Virus record (IMG/VR): IMGVR_UViG_3300047560_000700
Coordinates: 1 to 22,075 of that record
DNA: 22,075 bases
Source: a virus
Direction: 5' to 3' (one strand)
Positions 1 to 18,994 of the stretch are shown here, piece after piece (position 1 is the stretch's first letter; the number at the start of each line of letters is the position of its first letter). The translations under genes were made by a program, and so were the position numbers. The notes beneath the pieces were generated by a model. That model searched no databases. It was not told the origin of the DNA and saw nothing but the letters and a program-made list of their open reading frames with translations.

Positions 1-83
1 AACCCCACCCCCTTCATACAGGAAACACCCCCCGTCAAAAATAAAACACACACTGCGAAAAATTACAGTACACTTTCTACTAG

Positions 84-159
84 GTTGGTGGGGGTGCACT
101 AGCGAAGCACAGCCCGACAAGGGAAGGCAATCGGGTGCAAATCCCGGACACCAACGCCA
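84..159 (+). ncRNA. Candidate structured RNA with tRNA-like closing helix and T-loop, in the terS leader
   Basis: Seen: GTTGGTG (84-90) pairs perfectly with CACCAAC (149-155) and is followed by G and CCA (156-159), like a tRNA acceptor end. Inside are a hairpin GTGC/GCAC (94-97 with 107-110, extendable by GGG 91-93 with CCC 113-115 across a 2-nt bulge) and a second hairpin 131-135 with 143-147 carrying the 7-nt loop TGCAAAT, which resembles a T-loop. CCCGA (113-117) could instead pair with TCGGG (131-135), so two folds compete. It is not a normal tRNA: no convincing anticodon arm, no GG in the D-loop, and one extra base (A148) between T-stem and acceptor. GGGAA plus GGTGCAAATCC recalls the core of cobalamin riboswitches, but the rest of that consensus is missing. 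The role is unknown; its place in the leader suggests control of terS or a packaging-related RNA. Confidence 0.4.
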
Positions 160-9164: not shown

Positions 9165-9189
9165 AAAGGGCCCTTCGGGGCCCTTTTTT
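9165..9189 (+). terminator. Strong intrinsic (Rho-independent) terminator after the capsid gene
   Basis: AAAGGGCCC (9165-9173) pairs perfectly with GGGCCCTTT (9178-9186) around a TTCG tetraloop, followed by a T run to 9189. A smaller hairpin, TAGTAC/GTACTA (9146-9151 with 9157-9162), precedes it directly. The pair would stop transcripts 20-45 bases after the capsid stop codon. Confidence 0.93.
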
Positions 9190-9333: not shown

Positions 9334-10092
9334 ATGTTCTACGTTTATGTGTATCGGGACCCTCGCCCCGCCAAGAACAACCAACCTGTATATGTCGGCA
9401 AAGGCACCGGAGATCGTGACCTATCGCATTGGTCACGCAAGTCCCATAACAAGCCCTTCCAGGACTTTATTGCGCACCTCAAGGCAAAGGGCCTAGTTGC
9501 CCCATGCGAACGCGTATTTGAGACAGAGGATGAGGCAGCCGCCTTTGCTAAGGAGATCGAGCTCATTGCCCTATATGGGCGCCGCAATCTAAATACCGGC
9601 ACGCTGTTCAACCTGACTGATGGGGGCGAAGGGGGCAGCGGTACCGTTCGAACGGCGGAACATCGCGCTATGGACAGTAAATTCTCTAAAGAGCATTGGC
9701 AGCAGCCGGAATATCGTGCCAAGATAATCGCCTCGCAGAAAGCCGTGCAAAGTACCCCGGAGGCGCGGGCGTTGAAGTCAGAAAACAGCACGGCCGGCTG
9801 GGAGGACCCTGAGGTGCGACGTAAGCGCAGTGAGGGTATTGCCAAAGCTAGAGCCGCTGCGGAGTCCAAAGCAAAGACCAGTGCGCAGGCTAAGGCGCAA
9901 TGGAGCGATCCTGAGTATGCTGCGCAGCAGGCCGCAAACAACAAAGAAATTGCCAATAGGGCAGAGGTAAAGGCAGCCAAGTCTGCTGCCACCAAGGCTA
10001 TGTGGGCGGATCCAGTCTGGAAAGCCAAGATGCTAGCAGCACGGGCTGCAAGAAAAGCTGCTAAATCCGTTGACACTACCCCCACCGCATGA
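9334..10092 (+). CDS. GIY-YIG homing-type endonuclease with four 34-residue C-terminal repeats
   Basis: Free-standing GIY-YIG nuclease of 252 residues. Nuclease domain (1-103): MFYVYVYRDP and PVYVGKGTGDR give the paired Tyr motifs and the Arg of the active site, with an acidic helix AKEIELIALYGRRNL (72-86) supplying the metal-binding Glu and a closing NLTDGGEGG (93-101). The C-terminal part is Ala/Lys-rich with four W-x-(D/Q)-P motifs whose Trp residues are at 122, 156, 190 and 224, exactly 34 apart. Each is followed by a basic helix, so it looks like a tandem DNA-binding array of the NUMOD kind. The gene stands alone between a terminator and a promoter, as expected for a mobile intruder. AGGAG lies 6 bases before ATG 9334, inside a hairpin. 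Confidence 0.85.
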   Translation: MFYVYVYRDPRPAKNNQPVYVGKGTGDRDLSHWSRKSHNKPFQDFIAHLKAKGLVAPCERVFETEDEAAAFAKEIELIALYGRRNLNTGTLFNLTDGGEGGSGTVRTAEHRAMDSKFSKEHWQQPEYRAKIIASQKAVQSTPEARALKSENSTAGWEDPEVRRKRSEGIAKARAAAESKAKTSAQAKAQWSDPEYAAQQAANNKEIANRAEVKAAKSAATKAMWADPVWKAKMLAARAARKAAKSVDTTPTA

Positions 10093-17043: not shown

Positions 17044-18195
17044 ATGGCAGAAGGCGGCTGGGGGTCCGGTACATGGGGTCAAGCTGGCTGGGGTGATTCG
17101 GTTTATGACCGGACCTTGGCCGAGACTGCCACGGGCGCTGATAGCACATCTGCCAACCAGACGCATTCGTCTGTAATTGCTGAGACCGCCACGGGGGCTG
17201 ATACTGTATCGGCCCTGGCTTCGTTTGAATCTAGCATTGCTGAGACGGCGACTGGCGCGGATTCAATAGCTGGGAATGTCAATTTCCAGTCTGCGGTCTC
17301 AGAAACAGCCACAGGATCCGACGCTATCTCAGCTGCCCAGAACTTTGGAGTGGCGGTAGATGAGACTGCCAGCGGGGCAGATAGCGTAGCGGCCGCTCAA
17401 ACCTTTGCAACAACCATTGCAGAAACAGCCACAGGCACGGACAGCATAGATACCCAGGCGGCATTTGGATCCTCGGTTAGCGAGACTGCCACTGGCACGG
17501 ACTCGGTTTCTTCCAATGTCTCTGTTTTTGCCGCTGTCTCTGAGGCGGCAACCGGGTCTGACGCAATCTCCTCCAATGCCAATTTCGGGGTGGGTATCAG
17601 CGAGAGTGCGTCTGGATCTGATACGGATTCCTCGACACCCACATACCCAGCCACGACTTCAGATACAGCAACTGGTACGGACGCAGTCAGTGCAAGCCCA
17701 ACATACTCCAGGAGCGTGTCTGAAACGGCTACTGCAACAGACCAGACCGCCTCCCAGTTTGAGTTTATTGGGACTATCCTTGAGACCGCCACGGCCACGG
17801 ATACGGTGTCTGCCAATGTAAGCGTCCAAAGCTCGGTGAGTGAGACGGCCACGGGCACAGATTCTGACGTTGGATTCTTGGTTTTGATGGCCGAGGTTTT
17901 GGAGACGGCCACGGCGGCAGCTCAGTTTGTGGCGGCTGTGAACTACATGGCTGCTATATCCGAGGCAGCGACGGCGGCAGATTACATTTATGCCAGCTAT
18001 TTGTGGAACCCAATTGACGACACCCAGACGGCCAACTGGGGGGATATCAATAACGAACAGACGCCTGGCTGGACCCAGGTCACGGATACGCAGTCGCCGG
18101 GGTGGACGGCTGTGGGGACAACTCAATCGCCGGGGTGGGCTAATGTGGATGACACGCAGGCTCCTAACTGGCAAAATATCAACACGAACTCGTAA
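17044..18195 (+). CDS. Tandem-repeat fibre-like protein (fifteen 20-residue and five 11-residue repeats)
   Basis: A 383-residue protein. The N-terminus is Gly/Trp-rich (GGWGSGTWGQAGWGDS). Residues 21-320 are fifteen consecutive units of exactly 20 residues, each with a core like SETATGTDSVS (ETAT or a variant at 27, 47, 67 and so on to 307), with no insertion or deletion. Residues 326-380 are five units of exactly 11 residues of the type DTQSPGWTAVG, Trp at 332, 343, 354, 365 and 376. A fixed period suggests a repetitive beta fold, for example a solenoid or fibre shaft. It lies in the tail/fibre region and is probably a virion fibre or adhesin. There is no clear ribosome-binding site; the start overlaps the stop of an eight-codon frame (17018-17044), so coupling is possible. 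Confidence 0.7.
   Translation: MAEGGWGSGTWGQAGWGDSVYDRTLAETATGADSTSANQTHSSVIAETATGADTVSALASFESSIAETATGADSIAGNVNFQSAVSETATGSDAISAAQNFGVAVDETASGADSVAAAQTFATTIAETATGTDSIDTQAAFGSSVSETATGTDSVSSNVSVFAAVSEAATGSDAISSNANFGVGISESASGSDTDSSTPTYPATTSDTATGTDAVSASPTYSRSVSETATATDQTASQFEFIGTILETATATDTVSANVSVQSSVSETATGTDSDVGFLVLMAEVLETATAAAQFVAAVNYMAAISEAATAADYIYASYLWNPIDDTQTANWGDINNEQTPGWTQVTDTQSPGWTAVGTTQSPGWANVDDTQAPNWQNINTNS
17104..18003 (+). repeat. Fifteen tandem 60-bp coding repeats
   Basis: Each unit encodes 20 residues centred on ETATG-x-D. All spacings are exactly 60 bp. Units have diverged at DNA level (third-base differences are frequent), so the protein period is kept while identity is lost, which argues for selection on repeat length. 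Confidence 0.9.
18019..18183 (+). repeat. Five tandem 33-bp coding repeats
   Basis: Units of 11 residues with a DTQ-x-PGW pattern, Trp exactly 11 apart, lying directly after the 60-bp array and running to the protein end. Confidence 0.88.
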
Positions 18196-18202
18196 GGATC
18201 CC

Positions 18203-18994
18203 ATGCTGGCCTACATGATCACCAACAACGTCAACGGGCACCGGTACATAGGTATCACGGTTTGCTCGTTGGAAAAGCGTTGGCGGGAGCATCGTAGTGC
18301 AGCCAATACAGGAAGCCAGAAGCGCCTGTACAAGGCTATGAGGAAGTATGGACTAGAGAATTTTGCGGTTGAGAAGATCTACGACGCCACGTCCTTTGAT
18401 GATTTGCAAGAGGCGGAGAAGCGCTTTATTGCCCAGTATGAGACCCATGCAAGCCTGAACAAAGGATACAACTTGACCTCAGGCGGGGAAGGGCGAGATC
18501 GTGTGGATCAGCTGTATGGGGAGCAGTTGCCATCTGTACTGACCAATGACGTGATTGCGTTTATCCGAAGTCCAGATCGTGCGGGTATGTCAAACCAGTT
18601 ATTGCTTGACGAGGTTGCGTCCAAATTTGGGATTAAATGTTCTCGTGACACAATCCGTGATGCGCGGCGAGGAGACACTTGGACGCATCTTAATGAACAG
18701 TATCCGCCAATCAAATCTGGACAGGGAAATAACAAGGCACCTGCAACAGAAGAGCATAAAGCAAAGGCGCGGGCTATCTTAGATTTGCATCGAACAGAAG
18801 CTCTCAAGAAGCTGGCCGAGTCTAAGAAGGGTAAGCGCGGACCCAATGCCAGATTATCAGAAGACACGGTACGGGATATTTTCTACAATCAAGACTCGCT
18901 GTTAAAAACAGCGCACAAATTTGGGGTCAGCAAGAAAATGGTTTTGTTGATCAAGCAGCGCAAGGCGCATGTGTATTTAACGCAAGGACTTTAA
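18203..18994 (+). CDS. GIY-YIG homing-type endonuclease with two helix-turn-helix-like segments
   Basis: A 263-residue protein. Nuclease domain (1-98): AYMITNNVNGHRYIGIT gives Tyr4 and the YIG at 15-17; EKRWREH gives Arg26 and His30; QEAEKRFI gives the metal-binding Glu72; and GYNLTSGGEG gives Asn90. All expected residues are present, so it should be active. C-terminal DNA-binding part: a segment about 113-162 (VASKFGIKCSRDTIRDARRG) and another at 215-260 (TAHKFGVSKKMVLLIKQR), both helix-turn-helix-like as in NUMOD modules. The ATG at 18203 follows AAGGA by 4 bases. Its codons look less optimised than those of the flanking structural genes, fitting recent arrival. It lies exactly between two fibre genes. 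Confidence 0.88.
   Translation: MLAYMITNNVNGHRYIGITVCSLEKRWREHRSAANTGSQKRLYKAMRKYGLENFAVEKIYDATSFDDLQEAEKRFIAQYETHASLNKGYNLTSGGEGRDRVDQLYGEQLPSVLTNDVIAFIRSPDRAGMSNQLLLDEVASKFGIKCSRDTIRDARRGDTWTHLNEQYPPIKSGQGNNKAPATEEHKAKARAILDLHRTEALKKLAESKKGKRGPNARLSEDTVRDIFYNQDSLLKTAHKFGVSKKMVLLIKQRKAHVYLTQGL

Follow-up and report, generated by a model that had tools for sequence, protein, structure and literature searches.

Several described RNAs resemble in part the leader RNA reported here. mascRNA/menRNA (RF01684) is part of a human nuclear lncRNA and is processed by RNase P. It resembles a tRNA, but its anticodon part is degenerate and it is located inside a long non-tRNA transcript. Bacterial tRNA-Sec (RF01852) has an acceptor/T stack of 8+5 bp, and cobalamin riboswitches carry a GGGAA ... 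GGTGCAAATCC stretch with a T-loop. GNRA-like pentaloops are common in RNA and need not imply an N-type partner. Among phage leader RNAs, putL of phage HK022 is an RNA of ~70 nt made just after the promoter, in which pairing extends from residue 3 to 72 and which forms two stem-loops (PMC9378689). The pentaloop of P22 boxB is GACAA, and its looped-out C touches the N peptide (PMC12550061).

This work describes a conserved structured RNA of 72 nt on the plus strand (positions 84-155) of the window, i.e. the whole 22,075-nt stretch of DNA that was analyzed, a 22-kb IMG/VR virus record that carries terS, terL, portal, capsid and tail genes on that strand. A preliminary description had proposed that the terS leader contains a compact structured RNA with a perfect 7-bp closing helix, two hairpins and a 7-nt T-loop; all of these are seen, and the relatives show covariation. 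It is near certain that 84-155 is a member of a genuine RNA family that Rfam 15 lacks; the proof comes from covariation among relatives and not from the folding energy of a single sequence. A well-supported family with a tRNA-like scaffold, in which the decoding arm is swapped for an invariant hairpin, is thus missing from Rfam 15.

Collection of related sequences

TerL/TerS searches and DNA-pattern scans of viral contigs turned up complete elements, of 16 distinct sequences, in about 35 IMG/VR phage records; the 16 are the window, L071 and its copies, L154, L157, L158, L159, L163, L164, L187, L189, L190, L192, L194, L271, L273 and L276. The first, exact DNA-pattern scan of viral contigs gave no match, and most of the 75 matches of one pattern scan were chance matches in coding sequence. 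The comparison also covered about 80 distinct terS leaders of relatives. Members score 84-98 bits on model R1 (window: 93.9 bits, E 3.7e-21, itself a training sequence); the E-values of this model are rough, training members match by construction, and its sole independent finds are the cousins described below. As the member sequences are related, p-values are optimistic.

In prokaryote genomes, 14 pattern matches were found, none of them followed by the T-arm, and these were taken as chance. Searching isolated phages and plasmids by DNA similarity gave no real match. Judged by TerL, Pelagibacter phages HTVC027P and HTVC023P and lake phage DSL-LC04 come closest among isolated phages (43-45% identity), and the leaders of HTVC027P and DSL-LC04 do not match model R1. 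Outside the L071 group, TerL identity of the member phages is only 45-52%. No phage tRNA-like or terminase-leader RNA of this kind was found in the literature searched.

Structure and covariation

The element consists of four helices. The acceptor-like P1 pairs 84-91 with 148-155. Its first seven pairs (84-90/149-155) are perfect in the window, reading GTTGGTG/CACCAAC. At the eighth position (91/148) the window and other members have a G.A mismatch, and about half of the relatives have U-A, C-G, G-C or U-G. P2 (94-110) is a D-arm-like hairpin, GTGC-ACTAGCGAA-GCAC, with its stem at 94-97/107-110. P3 (113-123) is a mini-hairpin, CCC-GACAA-GGG, that takes the place of the anticodon arm (stem 113-115/121-123). 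It is followed by a conserved single-stranded joining segment, NNGGYRA (124-130), and by the T-arm P4 (131-147), whose 5-bp stem (131-135/143-147) closes the 7-nt T-loop TGCAAAT (136-142).

In alignment A2 this P1(8)+P2(4)+P3(3)+P4(5) layout is paired in 97.2% of cells. Compensatory changes, for which the preliminary description had proposed a check, turned out to be abundant in P1 and the T-arm: 62 double-change cells are still paired versus 19.2 ± 3.9 in shuffles, and none of 500 shuffles reaches 62. When partners are slid by 1-3 columns, pairing falls to 35-42%. The four helices also come out of RNAalifold run without a given structure, which marks 11 pairs as covarying. Both sides have changed with pairing kept in seven of the eight P1 pairs (93% of cells paired) and in four of the five P4 pairs (100% paired). 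P2 is likewise paired in every cell, and in the L157/L163/L164 type one C-G pair is replaced by U-A. P3 (CCY/GGG, 100% paired) is nearly invariant, a C-G to U-G change being the only one seen, and its predicted pairing is supported by consistency, not by covariation.

Conservation is concentrated in the center. The 39-nt core (alignment columns 9-47) is identical to the window at 34-38 of 39 positions in 12 of the 15 other sequences and at 29-30 in the L157/L163/L164 type, while the 5' arm of the closing helix shares as few as one of seven letters with the window. A decayed or chance tRNA-like sequence without function could be suspected from the tRNA arrays that lie near the element in some relatives. 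That reading is refuted by the covariation, goes against the invariant non-tRNA core, and has a probability close to nil.

Folded on its own, the window sequence reaches a minimum free energy (MFE) of -31.7, compared with -23.4 ± 2.9 for shuffles (z -2.85; 2 of 200 shuffles as good). This is modest evidence and insufficient alone. Its MFE fold is rod-like and unlike the family fold (rod -30.0, consensus -23.3). The rod was rejected as a conserved fold, as it is not the MFE in L157, L158, L187, L190 and L194, and an alternative GCC/GGY pairing (112-114/126-128) is broken in L273/L276. The preliminary description had further suggested a switch in which CCCGA (113-117) pairs with TCGGG (131-135). 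The two strands can pair in the window, but this does not extend to the relatives, whose second strand reads TCAGG, CTGGG, CTCGG, CTCAG, CTTGG or GTTGG.

Comparison with tRNAs and cobalamin riboswitches

The arms follow each other as in tRNA (acceptor, D-arm, third arm, T-arm), and the acceptor and T-arm can stack up to 8+5 bp, as in bacterial tRNA-Sec. The likeness to tRNA and tRNA-Sec (RF00005, RF01852) extends to the loops in L187 and L194, which combine a TGG D-loop with a TTCAAAT T-loop; the 14 others combine TAG with TGCAAAT (once TGCGAAT). The letters at tRNA positions 18 and 55 thus change together, G with U in 2 rows and A with G in 14 (Fisher p 0.008, 16 related rows). This co-change fits the 18:55 contact of tRNA, and with two TGG sequences only it is suggestive. 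The differences are a 3-bp GACAA hairpin instead of the anticodon arm, a G-rich linker, a CCA end that is not conserved, and scores of the main family below the cut-off.

ARAGORN predicts no tRNA in the window. At the gathering threshold, Rfam 15 gives no family there. Relaxing the limit to E<=10 adds chance matches elsewhere in the sequence only, and no tRNA or cobalamin match. A 5-bp anticodon stem with a 7-nt loop is absent. On their predicted structure the family members are not tRNAs, because the third arm is an invariant CCY-GACAA-GGG and there is no anticodon arm. The element had been described beforehand as failing as a normal tRNA for want of an anticodon arm and a D-loop GG; the first reason stands, whereas the second is variable, the window having TAG and two relatives TGG. 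The G-CCA that had been read as the 3' end of the RNA fared less well. The GCCA at 156-159 varies among members, L071 having TTAA in its place, and the element-free sister phage L002/L082 has it too, reading GCCACAACC there. CCA-like ends occur in part of the members only, so far as the aligned leaders go; a CCA end is not a family trait, and GCCA is assigned to the flanking leader.

For L187, an unguided plus-strand comparison with Rfam ranks mascRNA/menRNA (second-best) and tRNA-Sec highest among the matches below threshold. Like the family RNA, mascRNA/menRNA is tRNA-like, has a degenerate anticodon part and is embedded in a long transcript that is not a tRNA; the family RNA differs in that it probably lies at a phage mRNA 5' end and has an unrelated core. 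Model R1 also found distant cousins in other phages (L191:4297-4369, L198:7251-7322, L181:1858-1937 and L237:2529-2601), with a 7-bp acceptor, a U8-A9-like linker and the family's GACAAGGG core. The L198 cousin just reaches the tRNA cut-off (29.0 bits), has mascRNA/menRNA as its second-best sub-threshold match as well, and, like L191 and L181, shares the core GCCYGACAAGGGAAGG with the family. The L181 cousin adjoins a tRNA-Arg gene. Gene finders can misread the family as tRNA: in L273 (1713-1802), an ARAGORN tRNA-Ala(AGC) overlaps the element with a wrong 5' half.

A partial resemblance to cobalamin riboswitches had also been noted. The likeness is confined to the GGGAA...GGTGCAAATCC stretch with its T-loop, no other riboswitch part occurs in the family, and Rfam gives no match. 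A cobalamin riboswitch was rejected: there is no B12 box, and the core runs into the P1 3' arm instead. Via the same T-loop stretch, model R1 picked up three cobalamin riboswitch-like sequences at 18-22 bits (L323-L325). These lie in 'Bacteriophage sp.' faecal records (MT837887, MT838468 and MT835897), which are probably mislabelled bacterial contigs with apparent cobalamin riboswitches.

Insertion site

Alignment with the sister L002/L082, whose TerS and TerL are 92% and 93% identical, shows one clean gap equal to window 79-155, a discrete 77-nt insertion with near-identical DNA on both sides. It sits between the -10-like hexamer TACACT (69-74), 9 nt upstream of the RNA, and the terS ribosome-binding sequence AGGAG (165-169), where AGGAGTGCG is kept in most related leaders. 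The gene downstream is terS (183-737), a small terminase gene by position as its homologues lie directly before terL; its product has no PHROG or Pfam match above cut-off. The large terminase gene terL (727-2265) matches phrog_38 (E 5.8e-96). Most related leaders are short, with 12-14 nt from the -10 box to the ribosome site in L002, L015 and L070.

Other folded inserts, unrelated to the family, occupy the same site. Their closing helices read CGTTGATGG/CCATCAACG in L076 (249-353), GTTGGC/GCCAAC in L051 (1617-1693), GTTGGG/CCCAAC in L007 (1986-2089), GTTGGTGG/CCACCAAC in L124 (31-130) and GTTGGCG/CGCCAAC in L077 (1991-2080), the last enclosing two T-loop hairpins. Further inserts are found in L013 (557-611), L081 (2338-2437) and L145 (959-1104), and the insert of L135 is a plain hairpin. 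In the window, L071, L076, L051, L077, L013, L007 and L124, the closing helix begins about 6-9 nt downstream of the -10 box, and 5'-GTTGG...CCAAC-3' recurs across many otherwise different inserts. An inner motif GGATTGGGGGTACCCGGTCG or a near-variant occurs in L005, L013, L051 and L194, and another, CCCTGCTTTATGGG, in L141 and L190 (cf. L124). None of these other inserts is in Rfam, and those of L005, L066 and L081 fold no better than shuffles on their own. This wider pattern is an observation, not proof.

The compared leaders show the predicted RNA to be an exchangeable cassette in a group of lake phages, placed after the promoter and before the first ribosome site. It offers a concrete testable case of a folded RNA heading a phage late operon, at a site that is empty or filled with unrelated folded RNAs in relatives. 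A packaging role, as a phi29-type pRNA-like RNA or a pac-site structure, is suggested by the position directly before terS in the window and others. It is disfavored because the RNA is dispensable in close relatives, being absent from the sister and from most related leaders, and heads a non-terminase (helicase) operon in L187, L190 and L192; we regard such a role as very improbable.

Genomic context and transcription start

The element occurs once per record (records up to 62 kb). In 13 of the 16 distinct members it is followed by a co-oriented terminase-portal-capsid late operon, and the three others are those that head helicase operons. The first gene follows anywhere from <30 to about 1000 nt after the element. 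tRNA genes lie between element and operon in L189, L199, L273 and L276, and in these and in L284 the element sits in or before tRNA arrays. The variable distance and the intervening tRNA genes speak against an action on terS translation. An SD-like reading of AAGGGAAGG is broken in L271, and an in-frame terS extension from GTG135 inside the RNA was rejected as the frame is lost in L071. In L273, L154, L158 and L271, a long second hairpin (..ACGCATGRGGATTG ... CARTCYYC..GTGTT) lies directly downstream of the element; it is absent from the window.

A TAxxxT -10-like hexamer lies 5-9 nt upstream of the closing helix at 11/100 positions versus 47/4670 elsewhere upstream (odds ratio 12, p 2e-8, relatedness not corrected). 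In the window no good -35 was found upstream of TACACT. Full promoters are present at that spacing in L159 (TTGACA-N18-TACACT) and L187 (TTGACA-N17-TACATT), and for this reason the RNA probably begins at P1, the start being placed from -10 spacing only. In L189, L199, L190 and L192, another folded module precedes the RNA.

A ligand-sensing riboswitch for the terminase operon would account for an invariant core with free helices, as is typical of aptamers, and about half of the lineages have the rod-like alternative as their MFE fold. No expression platform is seen, however; the element does not include the terS ribosome site and may be followed by tRNA genes or by hundreds of nt, helicase operons are headed too, and the rod fails in the five lineages named above. 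We consider this reading improbable.

Alternatively, a tRNA-like small RNA could be released from the leader and act in trans, either as a decoy for a host factor that cuts or modifies tRNAs or in a mascRNA-like role, the leader serving as a strong promoter. The predicted tRNA-like elbow, the 18/55 co-change, the location in or before tRNA arrays and the CCA-like end of several members are in line with such a role. Against it, CCA and discriminator are not conserved (CCA being flank in the window), the acceptor sequence varies freely, no terminator follows the RNA, and the element is always co-oriented at an operon head. We find an action in trans doubtful; if true, it would mean a phage-made tRNA mimic.

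Proposed action on the transcribing polymerase

We favor a cis-acting leader RNA that acts on the transcribing polymerase in a put- or nut/boxB-like manner, with a probability of roughly 0.35. Transcription would start on the first P1 base or no more than a few bases away, making the RNA the 5' end of the late transcript. A D-loop/T-loop contact would fold it into an L-shaped elbow displaying the invariant GACAA hairpin and the NNGGYRA strand. The RNA would then act in cis on the elongation complex that just made it, binding polymerase directly (as HK022 put does) or via an arginine-rich phage peptide (as P22 boxB does), and polymerase would pass terminators and pauses in the long downstream operon. 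If true, this would be a new, protein-light control of late transcription.

The comparisons with put and boxB are analogies, not homology. Like put, the RNA is about 70 nt long and would form at the very start of a phage operon transcript, its start here being set by the -10 spacing. put has two stem-loops and is V-shaped, in contrast to the four-helix tRNA-like junction of the family, and there is no sequence or secondary-structure likeness. With P22/lambda boxB (nut) it has in common the loop sequence GACAA, here invariant and in a predicted hairpin of a phage operon leader; it differs in that the hairpin is a 3-bp stem inside a larger fold and in that there is no boxA. A boxA in P2 was considered and rejected: the candidate TGCTCT-like stretch falls within the paired P2 and lacks conservation, reading TGCACT in the window and having no counterpart in the L157 type.

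The same position at the start of the transcript would suit a 5'-end shield, i.e. a helix from the first transcribed base that guards the late mRNA from RppH/RNase E 5'-end-dependent decay. As many folds can shield, this would explain the exchangeable inserts, including the plain hairpin of L135, whose closing helices begin at a similar distance from the -10 box; the default leaders with only 12-14 nt there agree with it. A plain hairpin would suffice for shielding, though, and the identity of the 39-nt core far exceeds that need. In four members, moreover, another folded module sits 5' of the RNA. A shield is possible, if on the unlikely side; the conserved core and the use as second module favor an action on polymerase over simple shielding.

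For the polymerase reading we count the cis position at the operon head, the single copy per record, the GACAA loop of P22 boxB and an intrinsic-terminator-like hairpin after the major capsid gene (9165-9186, plus strand), the best terminator-like site found in the window. Relatives retain this hairpin, with other letters in the stem, whether or not they carry the RNA. That the RNA-free sister has the same post-capsid terminator counts against the reading: readthrough cannot strictly depend on the RNA, and any effect would be a boost, not a need. More broadly, and tentatively, tailed DNA phages may carry a family of tRNA-like leader RNAs that serve as interchangeable cassettes at one fixed position just behind the late promoter. 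Each would be a self-contained device that reprograms polymerase or protects the late transcript, in the present case a tRNA elbow holding out a boxB-like GACAA hairpin, and would be swapped, gained and lost like protein morons.

Two further genes in the window concern its structural gene block. The gene at 17990-18991 has a GIY-YIG nuclease domain (PF01541, E 1.2e-9), and that at 9334-10089 has a weak GIY-YIG match below cut-off; both are likely homing endonucleases.
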